A stretch of 64,000 nt of DNA from Streptomyces sp. CA-278952 (GTDB taxonomy: Bacteria > Actinomycetota > Actinomycetes > Streptomycetales > Streptomycetaceae): positions 5,890,001-5,954,000 of the forward strand of contig NZ_CP112880.1 in assembly GCF_028747205.1 (NCBI RefSeq). The letters are read 5' to 3'. This document shows positions 7,745 to 63,900 of this stretch, in pieces (within the stretch, counting starts at the first letter, position 1; each line of letters begins with the position of its first letter). Both the position numbers and the translations under genes were made by a program. The notes under the pieces are model-generated. The model saw only the letters and a list, made by a program, of their open reading frames with translations. It made no database searches and was not told the origin of the DNA.

Positions 7745-9078
7745 AAGTCCTCCGAAGGGGGTGGGACGGACGGCGACACGGCCGGAGGCAGCGGCATCCG
7801 GGCGGCCACCCGGAACCCGCCGTCGGGCAGCGGCCCGGTGTCCAGCGTGCCGCCGGTCAACCGTACGCGCTCCCTCATCCCCACCAGCCCGTGCCCGGTC
7901 CCCGCGCTCTCCAGCGGCGCCGCGGGCTTCGGCGCGGGGCCGTTGACGACCAGCACGTTCAGATGGCCGTCGGCCACCCGGACCGATACCTGGGTGCGCG
8001 CCCCGGGCGCGTGCCGCACCACATTGGCCAGCGCCTCCTGCACGATCCGGTACGCCGACAGATCCACCGCCGGCGGCACCTCGCCCAGCTCGGCGGCGAG
8101 CGAAAGCTCCGCCGGCAGCCCGGCCCGTACGGTCGCCTCCACCAGCTGCTGCAACCGGTCCAGGCCCGGCTGCGGCGCCCGGTCGCCCTCGGTGCCGTCG
8201 CTGCGCAGCACCGACAGCAGCCGCCGCATCTCGCCGAGGGACTCCCGCGCGGCTGCCGCGATCGAGGCGAACTCCTCCCGCGCCGGCTCCGAGAGCCCGG
8301 AGATCCGGTACGGCGCGGAGTCGGCCTGCACGGTGATCACCGACATGTGGTGCGCGACCACGTCGTGCAGCTCACGGGCGATCCGCGTCCGTTCCTCCAG
8401 CAGCGTGCGCTGCGCCCGTTCCGCCTCGCTGATCGTCTCCTGCTCGGCCAGCCGCCGCGTCGCCTCGCTCCGCTCCCGTACGGCACCGCCGATCACGAGG
8501 ACCACCGCGCCGAGGATCGGCAGCAGCAGGGCGCTGCCGGTGTTGCGGTCCGCCGGTGCGATCAGGTGCAGCACGAGACCGGCCGCGCCCGTCGCCAGCC
8601 AGACGCCGACCGAGGTCCGCCGTGTCTCACGCAGACCGAGGGCCAGCAGCAGGAAGAGGTACGCGACCAGCACCGGGGGGATCCACGGCCAGACGTCATG
8701 CCGCTCGTCGGGGTTGGCCAGCAGCACCAGGGCGCCCACGATGTCGGCGGGGAAGATGATCCACCACGCCTGGAGAGGCCGGTGGGCCAGCATCAGCAGA
8801 GGGGCGGACTGGGCCACCGCGAGCGCCCCGGCCAGTGCGCCCGGCACGCCGTACTGCGAGGTCAGGACGTTGATGGTGACCGGGATGAAGGTCGCGGTCA
8901 GGGCGAGCACCACGACGTACGGCAGCAGCCGCTGCCACCGCTTCGGGGCTTTTGCCAGCAGCGGGGTGGACGGATGGGACGCGTGGGACAGCCCGTGGGC
9001 GAGCTCGCGCAGATTGCGGCGGGCGGCGCTCAGCAGGCCGTCGGCGGGCGGCGGAGGCCCGGCGGGGGAAGTGGACAT
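7741..9078 (-). CDS. NarL-type sensor histidine kinase (HisKA_3)
   Basis: A 445-aa membrane kinase with five or six transmembrane segments between about 50 and 200 and no sizeable extracellular domain. This resembles intramembrane-sensing kinases. The phospho-acceptor is H238 in ARELHDVVAHHMSVI. The ATPase domain includes EALANVVRHAPG and GTGHGLVGMRERVRLTGG. It precedes and overlaps its regulator. Family members often answer envelope stress or antibiotics, so links to the neighbouring acyltransferase/hydrolase pair are plausible but unproven. Confidence 0.92.
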   Translation of the reverse strand: MSTSPAGPPPPADGLLSAARRNLRELAHGLSHASHPSTPLLAKAPKRWQRLLPYVVVLALTATFIPVTINVLTSQYGVPGALAGALAVAQSAPLLMLAHRPLQAWWIIFPADIVGALVLLANPDERHDVWPWIPPVLVAYLFLLLALGLRETRRTSVGVWLATGAAGLVLHLIAPADRNTGSALLLPILGAVVLVIGGAVRERSEATRRLAEQETISEAERAQRTLLEERTRIARELHDVVAHHMSVITVQADSAPYRISGLSEPAREEFASIAAAARESLGEMRRLLSVLRSDGTEGDRAPQPGLDRLQQLVEATVRAGLPAELSLAAELGEVPPAVDLSAYRIVQEALANVVRHAPGARTQVSVRVADGHLNVLVVNGPAPKPAAPLESAGTGHGLVGMRERVRLTGGTLDTGPLPDGGFRVAARMPLPPAVSPSVPPPSEDL

Positions 9079-10311: not shown

Positions 10312-11520
10312 TCAGCCGTCCCGCTCACCGGAAATACCGCTGTGGCACGCGCTGTCGGCACGCGCGCAGCTGACCGATCCGTACGCTCCGACGCCGATCG
10401 CGGCGAAGTTGTCCAGGCTCTCGGTGCCCGGTTCGAAGTAGCCGCTGTGCCCGGCGACGCCGGCCGCCGAGACGATGCGCGCGCCGAAGGCCGGGTCGAC
10501 CGGGTCGGCCCCGTGACCGATCCCGCCGAACTCCAGATGGGGTACGTCCCCGATCCAGTCGTCCCCGTCCCGCGTCGCCCAGATCCGGGCGCCGGTCTCC
10601 AGTTGACCGGCGGTGGCGGCCCGCATGCCGGGGCTGCCCGCCACCGCGATGTCGGCCACCCGGTCGTGGGCCCGGTGCGCGGCCACCCCGCACACCACGG
10701 AGCCGTAGCTGTGGCAGAACAGCGAGACCTTCGAGGTGCCGGGCAGCGCGCCGACCATCGCGTTCAGCCGGATCGCGCCGTTCGCCGCGAGCCCGCCCAG
10801 CGCCGCGTCCATGCCGAGGCCGGCCGGGGCGGTGTAATCGGCCCACGCGATGACGGCCGTACGGGTGCCCGGGGCGGCCGAGCGCTCCGCCTTGTACAGG
10901 GACTTGGCCATCCCGACGGGGGCCCGGTACGCGCGAGTGCCGCGCTCCAGGGACAGCAGATGGGTGTCGACGCCCGGGACGACGACGGAGACCCGGGCGG
11001 CCCGGTCGAGATTCCCGAACACCTCGGCCGCACGGCCCCTCCCGGAGGGATCGAAGGCCAGGATCTGGCGTTGGCCCGCGAGCATCGAGCGGAACCGGCC
11101 GAGACGCGCCTGCGCCTCACCGCGCCCGTCCGGCGAGAGCTTCTCGTCGTGCGCCCGCGTTCTCTCCACGGTCACGGCCTGTCTGAGGGCCGTCCGGTTG
11201 GCGTGGTAGCGCAGGGTGACCGGAGCGCCGTTCAGATTCCCCACCACCGACGGGTACTTGCCCGCGAGGGCGATCTGCTGTCCCGAGGTGAGGGTGGCGA
11301 AGAAGTGGGCCAGCCGGTAGGCGGGAGCGTCGGCGTCCGGCAGTGAGCGGCCGGCTATCCGGTCCTTCGCCCAGGAGGCGAGCGCGAGCTCGCGCTCCCC
11401 GCCGGAGTGCTGATCGCGGACGGCGCTCCAGCCCGTCGTCGCCAGCATCACGAACACCACCGCCACGGCGAGCAGAGCACGCCATGCGGTCAACGTGGGT
11501 GAGGTGTCGAAGGAAGTCAC
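10312..11520 (-). CDS. Secreted alpha/beta hydrolase, DUF1023 family (second copy)
   Basis: A 402-aa paralogue of the protein at 5740-6906. It has a hydrophobic leader (ALLAVAVVFVMLATTGWSAV), shared blocks KYPSVVGNLNGAPVTLRYHAN and QILAFDPSGRGRAAEVFGNL, nucleophile motif FCHSYGSVVCG, and ending HSGYFEPGTESLDNFAAIG. It lacks the long repetitive C-terminal tail of the other copy. The GTG at 11520 is chosen because it gives a conventional signal peptide; an in-frame ATG at about 11577 would add 19 residues. Substrate unknown. Confidence 0.85.
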   Translation of the reverse strand: MTSFDTSPTLTAWRALLAVAVVFVMLATTGWSAVRDQHSGGERELALASWAKDRIAGRSLPDADAPAYRLAHFFATLTSGQQIALAGKYPSVVGNLNGAPVTLRYHANRTALRQAVTVERTRAHDEKLSPDGRGEAQARLGRFRSMLAGQRQILAFDPSGRGRAAEVFGNLDRAARVSVVVPGVDTHLLSLERGTRAYRAPVGMAKSLYKAERSAAPGTRTAVIAWADYTAPAGLGMDAALGGLAANGAIRLNAMVGALPGTSKVSLFCHSYGSVVCGVAAHRAHDRVADIAVAGSPGMRAATAGQLETGARIWATRDGDDWIGDVPHLEFGGIGHGADPVDPAFGARIVSAAGVAGHSGYFEPGTESLDNFAAIGVGAYGSVSCARADSACHSGISGERDG

Positions 11521-57725: not shown

Positions 57726-58640
57726 TCACGGTGAGCCCGGAGAAGCCCCATCGGCCTGCTTCCCGGCCTGCTCCTCGGACTGCTTCCCGGGCTGCCTCTC
57801 GGGCTCCTCCGGCTCACCGAACACGGCGCGCGCGTCGAAGGCGGCGCGGCGGGTGGCCCGGCGCAGCGCCTTCAGCAGCGTCGGGCCGAGCGTGAGGGTC
57901 AGGACCACCGTCAGCACCGCCCGCCCCAGGTCCCAGCCCAGCGAGGTCGCGGCGCAGTAGGCGAGGAACCGCACCAGGTTCTCGTGGAGCGGATCGTTCC
58001 CGTCGAACGAGATTCCCGAACCGAGACCGGTGAGGAGCGGCCAGCCCTGGAGGTTCATCACCGCGCCGTACGCGAACGCCGCCACGCAGCCGTACACCGC
58101 CAGCATCGCCAGCTCGGCCCGCCCGCGCAGCCGGTCCGCTCCCGGCAGCAGCCCCGCGCCCATGGTGAACCAGCCCATCGACAGCATCTGGAACGGCATC
58201 CACGGCCCGACCCCACCCGTCAGCAGCGCCGAGGCGAACATGGTCACCGAACCGAGCACGAAGCCGAATCCGGGGCCCAGCACCCGCCCGCTCAGCACCA
58301 TCAGGAAGAACATCGGCTCCAGGCCCGCCGTCCCGGCGCCGAGCGGGCGCAGCGCCGCCCCGACCGCCGCCAGCACCCCGAGCATCGCGACGGCCTTCGC
58401 GTCCATGCCGGACTCGGAGATCGTCGCCACCACCACCGCGACGAGCAGCGGCAGCAGCGCCGCGAACAGCCAGGGCGCGTCCTTCGCGTGCGCGAGCCCG
58501 GACCCGGCGTCCGCCAGCAGCGGCCACCCGAAGGCGACGACACCGACGGCCCCGGTCAGCAGCAGCACGGCGACCGACTTCGGCCCGAGCCGCACCGGCC
58601 GGGCCGCCCGCTCCCGAACGCCGGCCTCCTTCTCGCTCAT
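57726..58640 (-). CDS. ECF transporter substrate-specific (S) component
   Basis: A 304-aa membrane protein with about seven hydrophobic segments (VAVLLLTGAVGVVAFGWPLL, FAALLPLLVAVVVATI, MFFLMVLSGRVLGPGFGFVLGSVTMFASALL). The GGVGPWMPFQMLSMGWFTMGAGLLP block is typical of ECF S-components annotated as CbrT-like. The ATG at 58640 overlaps the ABC gene's TGA (ATGA). As the last gene of the riboswitch-controlled operon, it likely binds the transported corrinoid or cobalt. A disordered charged tail follows. Confidence 0.85.
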   Translation of the reverse strand: MSEKEAGVRERAARPVRLGPKSVAVLLLTGAVGVVAFGWPLLADAGSGLAHAKDAPWLFAALLPLLVAVVVATISESGMDAKAVAMLGVLAAVGAALRPLGAGTAGLEPMFFLMVLSGRVLGPGFGFVLGSVTMFASALLTGGVGPWMPFQMLSMGWFTMGAGLLPGADRLRGRAELAMLAVYGCVAAFAYGAVMNLQGWPLLTGLGSGISFDGNDPLHENLVRFLAYCAATSLGWDLGRAVLTVVLTLTLGPTLLKALRRATRRAAFDARAVFGEPEEPERQPGKQSEEQAGKQADGASPGSP

Positions 58641-60370
58641 ACGCCCGCCTCCAGCGCGCCGCGCACCTGGGACACGGTCAGCCACTCCTGCGGGGCCAGG
58701 ATCTTCGCCGTCTGCGGGGCGAACGCGGGCGAGGAGACCACCACCTGTCCGGTCGGGCCGTCCGCGACGACCTCCCCTTCGGCGAGGATCACCACCCGGT
58801 GCGCCAGCTCGGCCGCCAGCTCCACGTCGTGCGTCGCCAGGACGATCGCATGCCCCTCGGCCGCCAGACCGCGCAGCACCCCGACGAGCCGGGCCTTCGC
58901 CGCGTAGTCCAGACCACGCGTCGGCTCGTCCAGCAGCAACAGCGGCGGCCGGCCCGTCAACACCAGCGCCAGGGCCAGGGCGAGCCGCTGGCCCTCGGAG
59001 AGGTCCCTGGGGTGGGTGTCGTCCGCGACGCCCGGCAGCAGCTCCGACACCAGCGCCCGGCAGGAACCCTCCGCCGCGCCCGCGTCCCGGTCGGCGGCGG
59101 CGCACTCGGCGGCCACCGTGTCCGCGTACAGCAGATCGCGCGGTTCCTGCGGTACGAGGCCGACCCGGCGCACCATCGCCCGGGGGTCCGTCCGGGCCGG
59201 GGCCAGGCCGCCGACGCGCACGGTGCCCGAGGTGGGCTCGATCATGCCGACGAGCGCGCCGAGCAGCGTGGACTTGCCGGCCCCGTTGCGGCCCATCAGG
59301 GCCACCGTCTCACCCGGGGCCACGGTAAGCGTCACCCGTCGCAGCGCCTCGACCCGGCCCCGCCGCACCCCGAGCCCGTCGACCCGGGTGACCGGATCGG
59401 CGACCGGGGCGGCGGCCGGGGCGTCGGCCCCACGCCCGAGGAGCCGGGCGAACCTGCCGGGCCGGGGGGCGTGTGCCACGGGCGGGGGCGCGACGGACCG
59501 GCCGGACGGCGCCTCCGGCATCCCCGGCGCCTCCGGGGGCACGGGCGGCGACGCCTCCGCGAGCCGCTCCCGCAGCCCGCCCGCCCCGCGCCGGGCGTCC
59601 CGTACCGACAGCGGCAGCGGGTCCCAGCCCGCGAGCAGTCCCAGCTCGGCCACCGGCGGCCGTACCGGCGACACCTTCATGATCTCGGCGGGCGGCCCCA
59701 TCACGGGGGCGGCGCCCGGGGCGGGCAGCAGGACGACCCGGTCCGCGTACTGCACCACGCGCTCCAGCCGGTGCTCGGCCATCAGCACGGTCGTGCCCAG
59801 GTCGTGCACCAGCCGCTGGAGCACCGCGAGGACCTCCTCGGCCGCCGCCGGGTCCAGCGCGGAGGTCGGCTCGTCCAGCACCAGCACCCTCGGGTGCGGG
59901 GTGAGCACCGAACCGATCGCCACCCGCTGCTGCTGGCCGCCCGACAGGGTCGCGATCGGCCGGTCGCGCAGCTCGGCCAGGCCCAGCAGATCGAGCGTCT
60001 CCTCGACCCGGCGGCGCATCACGTCGGGGGCGAGACCCAGCGACTCCATGCCGTACGCCAGCTCGTCCTCGACGGTGTCCGTGACGAAGTGCGCGAGCGG
60101 GTCCTGGCCCACCGTGCCGACCAGATCGGCCAGTTCGCGGGGCTTGTGCGTACGGGTGTCGCGGCCGCCCACCGTGACCCGGCCCGACAGCAGCCCGCCC
60201 GTGAAGTGCGGGACGAGCCCGGAGACCGTACCCAGCAGAGTCGACTTGCCGACACCGGAGGGGCCGACGAGCAGGACGAGTTCGCCCTCGGGGACCGTGA
60301 GATCGACGTCGGACAGCGTGGGGTGCTCCGTGCCCTCGTAGCGCACGGAGACCCGCTCGAACCTGATCAC
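58637..60370 (-). CDS. Fused double ABC ATPase of an ECF transporter
   Basis: A 577-aa protein with two complete ABC domains in tandem (EcfA-EcfA'). Domain 1 has Walker A GPSGVGKST (36-44), signature LSGGQQQR and Walker B VLVLDEPTSALD. Domain 2 (about 330-560) has GRNGAGKST, signature LSEGQR and LLLLDEPTRGLD. The Pro-rich linker is about 60 residues. The GTG start at 60370 overlaps the T-component's TGA (GTGA). Single-chain EcfAA' is common in actinobacteria. Confidence 0.93.
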   Translation of the reverse strand: MIRFERVSVRYEGTEHPTLSDVDLTVPEGELVLLVGPSGVGKSTLLGTVSGLVPHFTGGLLSGRVTVGGRDTRTHKPRELADLVGTVGQDPLAHFVTDTVEDELAYGMESLGLAPDVMRRRVEETLDLLGLAELRDRPIATLSGGQQQRVAIGSVLTPHPRVLVLDEPTSALDPAAAEEVLAVLQRLVHDLGTTVLMAEHRLERVVQYADRVVLLPAPGAAPVMGPPAEIMKVSPVRPPVAELGLLAGWDPLPLSVRDARRGAGGLRERLAEASPPVPPEAPGMPEAPSGRSVAPPPVAHAPRPGRFARLLGRGADAPAAAPVADPVTRVDGLGVRRGRVEALRRVTLTVAPGETVALMGRNGAGKSTLLGALVGMIEPTSGTVRVGGLAPARTDPRAMVRRVGLVPQEPRDLLYADTVAAECAAADRDAGAAEGSCRALVSELLPGVADDTHPRDLSEGQRLALALALVLTGRPPLLLLDEPTRGLDYAAKARLVGVLRGLAAEGHAIVLATHDVELAAELAHRVVILAEGEVVADGPTGQVVVSSPAFAPQTAKILAPQEWLTVSQVRGALEAGV

Positions 60371-61566
60371 GCCTGCTCCTTGCCGATACGAGCCTGTTTC
60401 CCGGTCCCGCGCGCGGGCGGCTTCCCGGTCCCGTACGCGGACGGCGGCACGGGGGCGACCAGCGCGGGCAGCAGCCCGACCAGCACCGCCGCGGCGGGCC
60501 ACAGCGGCAGCACCGGCGCGGTCAGCGGTACGACGCCGGGGCGCATCGCGTCCGGATCCACCGCGCCCGCCCAGATCATCGCCGCCGCGACCGCCGCACC
60601 CGAGCACGCCACCAGCCACGCCCGAACGCCCCACCGGTCCGGCCGGTACCGGGTGCGCACCGAGCGCCGCCCGCCGAGCCGCAGCCCGGCCATCGCCGTG
60701 ACCAGCCCGGCCAGCAGCAACGGGAGCCCGTACACCGCCCCCTGCGCGGCCAGCAGCCCGTACGTGCCGGCGCACACCCCGAGCAGCCCGCCCAGGGTGA
60801 GGACGTTCGTCGTGTGCCGGACGGCGGCCGGGACCTGCGCCGTACGCCCGTACCCACGCGCGTCCATCGACGCGGCCACCGCCACCGACCGCTCCAGCGC
60901 CCCCTCCAGCACCGGCAGCCCGATCTGCGCCACGGCCCGCACACCTCCGGTCGGCCGCCCCCGCAGCCGGCGCGCGGTGCGCAGCCGGACCACGTCGGCC
61001 ACCATGTTCGGCGCGAACGTCATCGCGACCACGACGGCGACCCCCGCCTCGTACAGCGCACCCGGCAGCGACTTCAGCAGCCGCGCCGGGTTGGCCAGCG
61101 CGTTCGCCGCGCCGACGCAGATCAGCAGCGCGGCCAGCTTCATCCCCTCGTACAGCGAGAAGACCAGCTGTTCGGCGGTGACCCGGCCACCGATCCGCAC
61201 GCCCTGCGCCCAGTCGGGCAGCGGCAGTTCGGGGAGGACGAACACCGTGTGAGAGCCGGGGATCGACGACCCGAGGAAAACGGAGAACACCAGCCGCAGC
61301 GCCACGACGAACAGCCCGAGCCTGATGAACGCGCCGTACGAACGCGCCCACGGCGCATCCGTCCGCCGCGCCGCCACCACGTACCCCGCCACTCCGACCA
61401 GCAGCCCGAGCAGCAGGGGGTTCGTCGTCCGGGACGCGGCGGTGGCCAGACCCAGCGCCCACAGCCACCACGCCCCGGCGGGCAGCGCGTTGCCGCGGTC
61501 CGCCTCGGGGGCGCGCAGGGCGCGGCGCAGCAGCCGGGCCGGAGCCGGGGCGGGGGAGGCGGTCAC
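60367..61566 (-). CDS. ECF transporter transmembrane (T) component
   Basis: A 399-aa membrane protein with about eight hydrophobic segments. It has the EcfT coupling motif VAASMDARGYGRTAQ (the A-R-G element that docks onto the ATPases) and RLRTARRLRGRPTGG. The N-terminal ALPAGAWWLWALGLATAASRTTNPLLL is typical. The GTG start at 61566 overlaps the upstream gene's stop (GTGA). The C-terminal 130 residues add two or three helices beyond a minimal EcfT. Confidence 0.9.
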   Translation of the reverse strand: MTASPAPAPARLLRRALRAPEADRGNALPAGAWWLWALGLATAASRTTNPLLLGLLVGVAGYVVAARRTDAPWARSYGAFIRLGLFVVALRLVFSVFLGSSIPGSHTVFVLPELPLPDWAQGVRIGGRVTAEQLVFSLYEGMKLAALLICVGAANALANPARLLKSLPGALYEAGVAVVVAMTFAPNMVADVVRLRTARRLRGRPTGGVRAVAQIGLPVLEGALERSVAVAASMDARGYGRTAQVPAAVRHTTNVLTLGGLLGVCAGTYGLLAAQGAVYGLPLLLAGLVTAMAGLRLGGRRSVRTRYRPDRWGVRAWLVACSGAAVAAAMIWAGAVDPDAMRPGVVPLTAPVLPLWPAAAVLVGLLPALVAPVPPSAYGTGKPPARGTGKQARIGKEQA

Positions 61567-62375
61567 CGGCGGCGGCGGGCCTGGACCACGGCGGCGACGC
61601 CCAGCAGCAGGACGGCGCCGATGCCGACGAGGAGCCCGACGGACGGACCGCCGGCGCCCTCGGAGGACCCGTCGCCGGAGTCGTCGGCAGGCTGCGACGC
61701 GTCGCCCGTCTCCACGGGCGAGGGCGGCTTCGCGCTGCCGTCTTCGCCGGACACCTGCTCGCCGCAGCCCGACTTCGGGTAGCCCGAGATCGCGCAGAGC
61801 ATGGCGCTGCTGTCGTACCGCAGCGGCTTCGCCACCGCGGCGAGCGCCTCCGCGCTGCTGGCGTCCGGTGCGACCTGCGCGCACGCCGTGCGCGGGGCGG
61901 GCGGCCTCTCCCCGTCAGGGGCGTCCGCCGCCGTACCGGGGTCGATCACCAGCGCCACCCGCTTCTGCCCGTCCTTCGCCGGGGTGTCCGCGCAGATCGC
62001 CCCGAAGTCGGGGGCGCGGCGCGGCTGTGCGGCATCGCCCGCATCCTCGCTCACGGCGAACCGGAAGCCCTGGACGGCACCGTCGTCCGGGCGAAGCAGC
62101 GACGGCCCCTGGGTGGCGTACTCCCAGTTCTTGCCGTTGCCCTCCCAGAAGGACCAGTAGCGGTAACCGGAGGCCTCGGCGCTGCCGGCGCCGAGGAGGA
62201 CGGCCGAGGCGGCGACCAGGGCGGCCAGCAGGACGACGAGAGGATTCCGCAGCCGGGCGACGGCAGGATTCCGCAGCCGTACGGCGGCTGGGTTCCGAAG
62301 CTGTGCGGCAGCGGGGTTCCGAAGCCGTGCGGCAGCGGGGTTCCGCGGTCGCGCCGGGACCGTCGTACGGCTCAC
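61563..62375 (-). CDS. Membrane-anchored secreted protein, SCO2322 family (possible DUF4430-like beta domain)
   Basis: A 270-aa protein. A basic N-terminus of five eight-residue repeats (RNPAAARL type) precedes a signal/anchor helix (LVVLLAALVAASAVLLGAGSAEA). The outside domain opens with GYRYWSFWEGNGKNWEYATQ and RPDDGAVQGFRFAV, then Cys-containing segments. A C-terminal helix (VGLLVGIGAVLLLGVAAVV) and RRRR tail anchor it. The Trp/Tyr pattern resembles DUF4430, the fold of the intrinsic-factor beta domain; that match is by eye. The GTG start at 62375 overlaps the previous stop. Confidence 0.8.
   Translation of the reverse strand: MSRTTVPARPRNPAAARLRNPAAAQLRNPAAVRLRNPAVARLRNPLVVLLAALVAASAVLLGAGSAEASGYRYWSFWEGNGKNWEYATQGPSLLRPDDGAVQGFRFAVSEDAGDAAQPRRAPDFGAICADTPAKDGQKRVALVIDPGTAADAPDGERPPAPRTACAQVAPDASSAEALAAVAKPLRYDSSAMLCAISGYPKSGCGEQVSGEDGSAKPPSPVETGDASQPADDSGDGSSEGAGGPSVGLLVGIGAVLLLGVAAVVQARRRR
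62242..62361 (-). repeat. 24-bp tandem repeat inside the SCO2322-family gene, five units
   Basis: Units at 62242, 62266, 62290, 62314 and 62338 encode the eight-residue repeat before the signal helix. Units 3 and 4 differ at one base. Confidence 0.9.
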
Positions 62376-63622
62376 GGCTGCTGCTTCTTCCGGCGCATGC
62401 TCAACACGAAGCCGATGCCCGCCCCCGCGACGAGACCGATGCCGATCAGCCACCCCAGGCTCAGCCCGCTGTCGTCGCTGTCGGTTCCGCTGGAGGGCTG
62501 CGGGCCGGTCGGCGTGGGCGAGGGGAGGGCGGTGGCGGCCGGGGCGGGGCCCATCGTGTTGAGCTGCTTGACGAGGTCGACGCCGCCGAAGCTGCGGGCG
62601 TCCGCGCCGGTGGCGTGCGCCGCGAGGATCAGCTGTGCGGTGGCGGCCGGGCCGCCCTGCTTCGCCCAGCCGGTGGCGTTCTTCTGCAGCCAGGCGACGG
62701 AGGCCTCGGCCTTGTCCGTGTGCCCGGAGGCGGCGAGCGCGACGACCGCGTCCGCGGTGTTGCCGTAGTCGGGCTGCGGCTCGGTGTTCTCGGCGCCCGG
62801 CATCGGGGGCTGCTCCAGGTACGGCGACTTCTTCAGGGTGTCCGCGAGGAAGGAGGAGCCGTTCTGGGCGGTCTGTTCCGGGCTGAGGTCGTCGCCCTTC
62901 GTGCAGGAGGGGTCCTTGACCGCGTTGGACGTGCCGGAGGCGATGCCCTTGCCCATCAGGCCGAGCACCGAGGCCGCAGTGGCGTCCAGGTTGGCGGCCA
63001 GCTCGCCCTTCTTGCCCGGCTGATACGCGAACGCGCCGCCGTCCTCGTCCCCGCAGGGGATGGCCAGCGACTGGAGCGCGGTGTACGGGGTGCTGCCGTC
63101 GGCGGTGGTGAGCTCGTTGACCGGGACACCGGTCCGGGCGAGCGCGCCGATGACGATGGACGTGGAGTTCGCGTCGCTCGGGCTGCCGGGGTTGTAGCCC
63201 CAGCCGCCGTCCTCGTTCTGTACGGACTTCAGCCAGTCGGCCCCGTTGTTGGCGTCGTCGCGGCGCTGGTTGATCTCGACGAGGGCCTGCACGGCGACGG
63301 CGGTGGCATTGGTGTCCATCACCGTGGAGGCGTCACAGGGCTTGGAGGCGTCGCGGTACGAGGTGAACGCCCCGCTGTCGCACTGCTGGCCCACCAGCCA
63401 GTCGACGGCGGCGGTGGACGGCGTGACGTACTCGATCTTCTGCGCGAGGAAGGCCAGCGACTGCCGCCACACCCCGTCGTACGTGGGGTCCGTGGTGCCG
63501 TAGAGCCCGGCCGGCAGCTCCGCCGACGGGGAAGGACTCGGCGCGGCGACCGCTACAGGTGCGGCCGCGCCCAGGAGCACGGCGGTGGTCGCGAGCGCGG
63601 CTGCGCTGCGGCGTACGGTCAT
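62372..63622 (-). CDS. Secreted, C-terminally anchored alpha/alpha-toroid (prenyltransferase/squalene-oxidase repeat) protein
   Basis: A 416-aa protein. A signal peptide ends AVAA. The body has repeated QxxxGGW-like elements: QCDSGAFTSYRDASKP, NEDGGWGYNPGSPSDANSTSIVIGAL, EDGGAFAYQPGKKGELAANLDATAASVLGL and TAQLILAAHATG. This is the alpha6/alpha6 barrel seen in squalene cyclases and in the cobalamin-binding domain of transcobalamin. No cyclase DxDD is visible. A C-terminal helix plus RRKKQQP anchors it outside. The operon starts with this gene, under a B12-type riboswitch. ATG at 63622. Confidence 0.85.
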   Translation of the reverse strand: MTVRRSAAALATTAVLLGAAAPVAVAAPSPSPSAELPAGLYGTTDPTYDGVWRQSLAFLAQKIEYVTPSTAAVDWLVGQQCDSGAFTSYRDASKPCDASTVMDTNATAVAVQALVEINQRRDDANNGADWLKSVQNEDGGWGYNPGSPSDANSTSIVIGALARTGVPVNELTTADGSTPYTALQSLAIPCGDEDGGAFAYQPGKKGELAANLDATAASVLGLMGKGIASGTSNAVKDPSCTKGDDLSPEQTAQNGSSFLADTLKKSPYLEQPPMPGAENTEPQPDYGNTADAVVALAASGHTDKAEASVAWLQKNATGWAKQGGPAATAQLILAAHATGADARSFGGVDLVKQLNTMGPAPAATALPSPTPTGPQPSSGTDSDDSGLSLGWLIGIGLVAGAGIGFVLSMRRKKQQP

Positions 63623-63639
63623 GGCTGGCTGGGCCTCTC

Positions 63640-63850
63640 CTGCGAGGGCCGGACTCCCCGGGCACACGAGGTCCCCGGGCTCCGGCCCCGTATGCCTCGA
63701 CGGTGCCGGCCACCGGGGTTCCGGTGGCCCGAGCCGGTCACGCTCCGCGGCGGGCGGTCCGGCTGCCGTCGGGCGGACGGGTCACGGCTGGGGCACTGCG
63801 CCGGATGCGTACCGGCTTCCCCCTGTACGGGCATGATGACGACCTGCCCA
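63640..63850 (-). promoter_or_regulatory. Cobalamin (B12) riboswitch
   Basis: Read on the minus strand the leader contains GGGGAAGCCGGT (63822-63811), then CCGGCGCAGTGCC (63804-63792), CAGCCGTGAC, and a B12-box-like GCCCGGGGACCTC (63680-63668) with flanking GAGGCATAC. These occur in the order of actinobacterial cobalamin riboswitches. It ends just before the start at 63622, whose ribosome site GGAGAGG lies 3' of the B12 box. Exact borders are approximate. Confidence 0.82.
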
Positions 63851-63900
63851 CTCTACCGGTCCGCAGCCGGCGGACGGGGGCGTGGCCGGGGGCACGACCG

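Follow-up and report, generated by a model that had tools for sequence, protein, structure and literature searches.

A split, circularly permuted transcobalamin-like receptor probably serves a corrinoid importer in Actinomycetes

We analysed 64,000 nucleotides of the Streptomyces sp. CA-278952 genome (contig NZ_CP112880.1, positions 5,890,001 to 5,954,000; hereafter the window), which contain a five-gene operon joining members of the SCO2321 and SCO2322 protein families to an energy-coupling factor (ECF) importer. On the evidence of profile comparisons and an AlphaFold2 (AF2) model, the SCO2322 protein is a circularly permuted transcobalamin-type beta-grasp domain. The adjoining SCO2321 protein, an alpha/alpha toroid, is circularly permuted as well, when its profile is aligned with the natural-type toroids of sister operons. 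We consider it likely that the operon encodes a dedicated ECF importer of group I that takes up cobalamin or a closely related corrinoid, with a tethered, split transcobalamin-like receptor.

The genes are arranged in the order g1-g2-g3-g4-g5 and overlap by 4 nt at all four junctions (Table 1). An earlier note, made from the DNA letters alone, had proposed such a tightly overlapping operon of three ECF genes (T, fused A-A' and S) and two exported proteins with C-terminal helices and basic tails, the first of them an alpha/alpha toroid, and this outline was borne out. The g1 protein matches NF053823 (SCO2321) at 560.8 bits (cut-off 300) and also SQHop_cyclase_C (26.6 bits, cut-off 26.1), and g2 matches NF040672 (SCO2322) at 231.8 bits (cut-off 85). 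The g3 protein falls short of the CbiQ cut-off in Pfam, and the T position is conserved across loci; g4 comprises two ABC ATPase halves in profile scans. The sole Pfam match of g5 is to PF12822 (ECF_trnsprt, vitamin type), and it has no PDB match by sequence. T, both ATPase halves and S, the components of an ECF module, are thus encoded together. Both g1 and g2 appear to carry a hydrophobic segment in the N-terminal part and to end in a helix with a basic tail (residues 390-413 in g1 and 246-269 in g2). For g1, AF2 predicts a confident alpha/alpha toroid in which most blocks exceed 90, and for g2 a mixed alpha/beta core, also with confidence; in both models a low-confidence linker and the C-terminal helix follow. 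A 24-bp tandem repeat (window 62226-62345, minus strand) within the g2 N-terminus encodes RNPAA.RL-like units that precede the hydrophobic export segment.

The earlier note had likened g2 to DUF4430 (PF14478). In the Pfam copy searched g2 had no match and hence did not reach the DUF4430 cut-off, a failure that we attribute to the circular permutation of the domain; the likeness stood in substance, and the rotated profile spans DUF4430. By eye, the halves of SCO2322 are apparently swapped relative to DUF4430, and profile comparison matched the C-terminal half of SCO2322 to the N-terminal half of DUF4430 only (P 0.0015, or 1.4e-4 with more sequences). Proteins with the opposite, natural order occupy the same slot in sister operons. 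The SCO2322 model matches those of L137, L139, L208, L209 and L212 as two swapped segments, and the natural order of L138 (two copies) and L164 was read from sequence and alignment. A profile made from the first five natural-order proteins in turn matches SCO2322 in five genomes of Streptomyces (G050, G106, G116, G161 and G170) over 110-162 and then about 27-108. This profile has matches in 67 of 346 genomes of the phylum; 44 of these, from 37 genera, contain a near full-length match in one stretch, and the rest are shorter or are parts of SCO2322 or DUF4430 genes. In two genomes (G596 and G582), it overlaps Pfam DUF4430 matches. DUF4430 itself exceeds its cut-off in 61 of 296 phylum genomes and is flanked by homologues of T and S in nine of the 13 wider loci (L165-L177); the host genome contains no DUF4430 match at E ≤ 0.001.

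Rotation extends the hhalign alignment between SCO2322 and the natural-order family from 50 columns (P 1.9e-15) to 117 columns (P 1.3e-25), with an optimum cut point at 56-64 of 139. The natural-order family aligns with DUF4430 over 99-100 columns (P 4e-6 to 9e-6), as does rotated SCO2322 over 101 columns (P 1.6e-5, score 35.9), compared with 64 columns (score 30.8) for the unrotated profile. In 150 column shuffles, none of these scores was equalled. Since the score of SCO2322 against DUF4430 is flat across many cut points, the cut is fixed by the natural-order family and not by DUF4430. The rotated AF2 strand order, S1-S2-helix-hairpin (insert)-S3-S4-S5, is that tabulated for the transcobalamin type in PMC1949818, S1-S2-H-insert-S3-S4-S5 (this and the other papers cited by PMC number are cited from extracts). 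The predicted structure of g2 thereby contains the elements of the transcobalamin-type (SLBB) fold, namely five strands, a helix between S2 and S3 and a hairpin after the helix, in permuted order. The DUF4430 profile also reaches Transcobalamin-1 (E 0.021) and Transcobalamin-2 (E 1.7), weak matches that agree with the published assignment (PMC1796856).

The toroid is rotated in parallel. The g1 profile aligns with natural-type toroids in two segments whose order is rotated, and all 11 toroids found beside SCO2322 genes are collinear with g1. A toroid match is present in 15 of 24 natural-order loci. It is split into two or more segments in 11 of these, each of which starts with the portion found at the end of g1; the four single-segment matches were excluded from this count of orders. 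The hhalign score was 307 over 182 columns without rotation and 435 over 288 columns after rotation near residue 240, and 40 shuffles gave at most 18.2. The association of the two domains extends to a gene fusion. In L200, a single protein of 758 aa combines a toroid, a natural-order beta domain and three cell-wall-binding repeats, with toroid and beta domain in the order found in transcobalamin, and in L202 a toroid occurs with S-layer domains. From these two loci we infer that toroid and beta domain belong together and are probably located at the cell surface. In L138, two tandem pairs of toroid and natural-order protein (8087-8596 and 10395-10871, minus strand) precede one ECF module; a layout of this kind could be a starting point for permutation.

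We lean towards the view that both receptor halves were permuted in concert, such that the ligand-facing surfaces were kept and the tethers emerge on a different side. Two interacting proteins would then have undergone correlated permutation, with corrinoid capture as the function of SCO2321 and SCO2322; the sister operons would keep the unpermuted pair, and one lineage the single chain.

The leader upstream of g1 is related to cobalamin riboswitches. Searched alone, it scored 14.9 bits against RF00174 (E 0.15; gathering score 31.5), and a scan of the window at the RF00174 gathering threshold returned no cobalamin match. The cobalamin-riboswitch leader of the earlier note was thus not recovered at threshold in the window itself, and it gained support from orthologous leaders, seven of nine of which passed the RF00174 cut-off at the same place when whole loci were scanned. 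Using P5/L5 and P6 patterns of our own definition, we scored 80 related loci retained after a g1 search. The canonical P5/L5 core was present in 57 and the P6 box in 63, and the single locus that misses the leader does so because its contig ends there. The TAnAnT positions, which include the probable -10 element, are invariant across 36 aligned leaders. The window leader retains the P5 stem and a P6-like box around a non-canonical L5 loop. An altered L5 loop on an intact P5 stem is shared with ten close relatives (L009-L011, L013-L016, L018, L019 and L026), and departures are also seen in some distant loci. Control by B12 may therefore be weakened in the clade of the window, where the drift of L5 points to possible decay of the riboswitch. 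In a group of shortened leaders upstream of g1 (L027, L029-L033, L036, L049, L057, L058, L061 and L072), the P5 core is retained, and the P6 part is replaced by a different sequence capable of forming a hairpin.

The association with cobalamin riboswitches is general. We counted RF00174 matches on the same strand at E ≤ 0.001 per genome. Such a match lies within 2.5 kb upstream of 33 of 36 SCO2322 genes (12 of the 33 over the cut-off) and of 22 of 25 natural-order genes (10 of the 22 over the cut-off), and within 4 kb of all eight DUF4430 genes drawn from ECF operons, in each case over the cut-off. The three SCO2322 genes that miss a match (in G252, G114 and G331 contig C23) have no T, AA' or S nearby. 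The 68 genomes in this tally hold 150 listed RF00174 matches, for which we estimate well under one chance coincidence. Elsewhere in the host genome there are five RF00174 matches, four over the cut-off; one of the five directly precedes cobN (4166490-4166569 and 4166791). As part of the explanation that we hold to be likely, the operon was once, or is still, repressed by a cobalamin riboswitch, a regulation established here by association.

To get a picture of its distribution, we searched the class with the SCO2322 model, which matched 161 of 393 genomes and 61 of 122 genera at E ≤ 0.001, with 138 genomes over the cut-off; natural-order relatives account for part of the weak matches. We inspected 28 SCO2322 loci, 25 chosen to spread over families and three from Streptomyces. 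T, AA' and S adjoin SCO2322 in 23 of these, which, together with the class-wide matches, argues that the operon is more than a chance arrangement. A toroid of the g1 family is present in 11 of the 28. Among 23 genomes searched whole, the 14 with toroid-less operons have no g1-profile match anywhere, and in the other nine, the host included, the toroid lies at the operon; G083 and G000 show additional weak matches. In family f21, small genomes have the arrangement riboswitch-SCO2322-T-AA'-S, and the SCO2322 encoded there shares 85% identity with an SCO2322 labelled Candidatus Nanopelagicaceae. An ECF module behind cobalamin riboswitches in acI bacteria has been named a putative cobalamin transporter (PMC5301498), and it is very likely the same operon.

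Other arrangements vary around this core. L124 and L133 contain an RF00174 match, a toroid and SCO2322, with none of T, AA' or S in the stretch fetched; by gene content, these would be receptor pairs that have no ECF module of their own close by. In trees, ECF genes from SCO2322 operons are interspersed with those from natural-order operons and the beta domains separate, so that receptor genes may be exchanged among ECF cores. One genome of the genus Streptomyces (G076) carries, besides an SCO2322 locus, a second ECF locus (L164) with a natural-order beta domain, a separate DUF4430 domain and, after S, a rotated toroid.

We propose that the receptor consists of an alpha/alpha toroid without the cyclase motif and a transcobalamin-type beta-grasp, each on its own C-terminal helix. 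By analogy with transcobalamin, the two would sandwich the corrinoid on the outer side of the membrane and pass it to the S component, with T and AA' driving inward transport. Permutation would relocate the chain ends, and with them the membrane tethers; as fold and surface are kept and only the ends move, the sandwich could survive it. In toroid-less operons, such as those of acI-like genomes, the beta domain alone may serve, and the sandwich would therefore be one form of the receptor and not its minimum. With CobN present, the host is a probable B12 producer, in which the system would serve salvage.

Cobalamin riboswitches also control cobalt uptake. The same receptor and transporter might accordingly carry a different ligand of the B12 regulon, for instance cobalt, a corrinoid precursor such as cobinamide, or some metabolite required under B12 shortage, and the CbiQ/CbiO-like scores of T and AA' would suit this, as would the finding of CobN in seven of 18 other genomes tested besides the host. 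However, a toroid paired with a transcobalamin-type domain fits a corrinoid better than a bare ion, and the S component matches the vitamin-type family and no other in Pfam. Furthermore, all three acI-like genomes tested retain the operon and lack CobN (a search that did not extend to an anaerobic route), and acI strains in the literature are described as being without B12 synthesis (PMC5301498). We thus regard such a different ligand as unlikely.

The cyclase-like profile match of g1 raises the question of whether the toroid is a surface enzyme, either a terpene cyclase or one acting on glycans, with the beta domain alone serving the transporter. The catalytic motif of squalene-hopene cyclase is DVDD (DxDD). 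In g1 it is replaced at the aligned position by DTNA, of which D103 and N105 are invariant in 38 aligned sequences. Given also that the toroid lies next to the beta domain, is permuted along with it and is joined to it in the L200 protein, we consider an enzymatic role improbable, and the toroid, with the cyclase motif lost from its sequence, is best read as a binding protein. That the two domain orders are convergent, or artefacts of repeat mis-alignment or frame errors, is very improbable: toroids are indeed built of repeats, and SCO2322 and DUF4430 are distant enough that their comparison alone leaves the cut point unfixed, but the swapped segments appear with three different profiles, the rotation optima lie far above the shuffle nulls for both proteins, and near full-length natural-order matches occur in 44 genomes of 37 genera.

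Table 1 Features of the operon in the window.
Feature	Position	Strand	Details
g1, SCO2321 family, exported alpha/alpha toroid (residues 36-341) with C-terminal membrane helix	62372-63622	minus	416 aa
g2, SCO2322 family, exported, C-terminally anchored, permuted beta-grasp (core residues 70-208)	61563-62375	minus	270 aa, GTG start
g3, EcfT/CbiQ-like transmembrane component	60367-61566	minus	399 aa; PF02361 (CbiQ) 20.1 bits, below cut-off of 25
g4, fused EcfA-EcfA' ATPase	58637-60370	minus	577 aa; profile scans
g5, ECF S component	57726-58640	minus	304 aa; PF12822 31.0 bits, cut-off 30.7
Leader related to cobalamin riboswitches, compact; P5 core GGGAAGCCGG...ATCCGGC, P6-like CCAGCCGT	63759-63866	minus	RF00174 sub-threshold
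Probable -10 element TAGAGT inside 5' end of RF00174 match	63850-63855	minus	putative promoter element
DTNA of g1, residues 103-106, aligned with squalene-hopene cyclase DVDD	63305-63316	minus	alignment
Approximate toroid permutation point of g1, residues 236-246, start of natural-type toroids	62885-62917	minus	hhalign cut scan
g2 first segment, residues 71-109, strands corresponding to S3-S4-S5 of transcobalamin-type beta-grasp	62049-62165	minus	AF2 and natural-order matches
g2 second segment, residues 138-196, S1-S2-helix-hairpin, first in natural-order relatives	61788-61964	minus	AF2 and natural-order matches
g2 C-terminal membrane helix	61569-61640	minus	AF2 helix; membrane role inferred from sequence

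To our knowledge, ECF importers are usually taken to work without binding proteins. The earlier note had considered a two-part surface corrinoid receptor feeding an ECF S component to be a new architecture. The pairing of toroid and beta domain and the L200 fusion support the two-part receptor, for which a corrinoid is the probable ligand. The architecture is not new, because toroids, transcobalamin-type domains and CbiO/CbiQ operons were linked to B12 scavenging in 2007 (PMC1796856). The split, permuted form of the receptor appears to be new. In the openly accessible literature, we found nothing on SCO2321 or SCO2322 as B12 proteins or on their permutation; as far as we searched it, three points are new, namely that SCO2322 is a transcobalamin-type domain in permuted order, that its toroid partner is permuted in parallel and that a toroid-free form exists. 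Our results provide a testable function for two named, unexplained families of Actinomycetes, and the carriers of SCO2322 include likely freshwater B12 auxotrophs. The paired permutation is a natural experiment in which a two-protein binding site would have survived rewiring, and its permuted, unpermuted and fused forms can be compared. Taken together, our findings point to a bacterial form of the animal-type B12 sandwich, split into two tethered proteins that would act as receptor for an ECF importer.

Transcobalamin, intrinsic factor and haptocorrin of animals, like the operon pair, combine an alpha/alpha toroid with a transcobalamin-type beta-grasp, in the domain order of the fused relative L200. 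The bacterial pair differs in being two separate, membrane-tethered, permuted proteins beside an ECF importer, and in the lists of toroid matches, some of them limited to the best matches, no specific match to these animal carriers appears. The SLBB/DUF4430 surface proteins with CbiO/CbiQ operons share the operon logic, surface location and proposed B12 scavenging; the extract of PMC1796856 places them in low-GC Gram-positives, planctomycetes and some euryarchaea, and contains no mention of SCO2321/SCO2322 or permuted forms. ECF-CbrT and CbrUVT (PMC5997447, PMC8123684; also treated in PMC6593275) are likewise ECF-type corrinoid uptake systems, but in ECF-CbrT the S component itself is described as the binding protein, and the S component of the window has no sequence match to a PDB entry. 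The three f21 loci inspected first (L120-L122) differ from the window in that they lack the toroid and, in those aligned, SCO2322 has no C-terminal anchor. Finally, the eukaryotic E1 UFD is also a natural circular permutation of a beta-grasp, in which, according to the extract of PMC1949818, only S1 is moved to the C-terminus, whereas SCO2322 is cut at the insert before S3.
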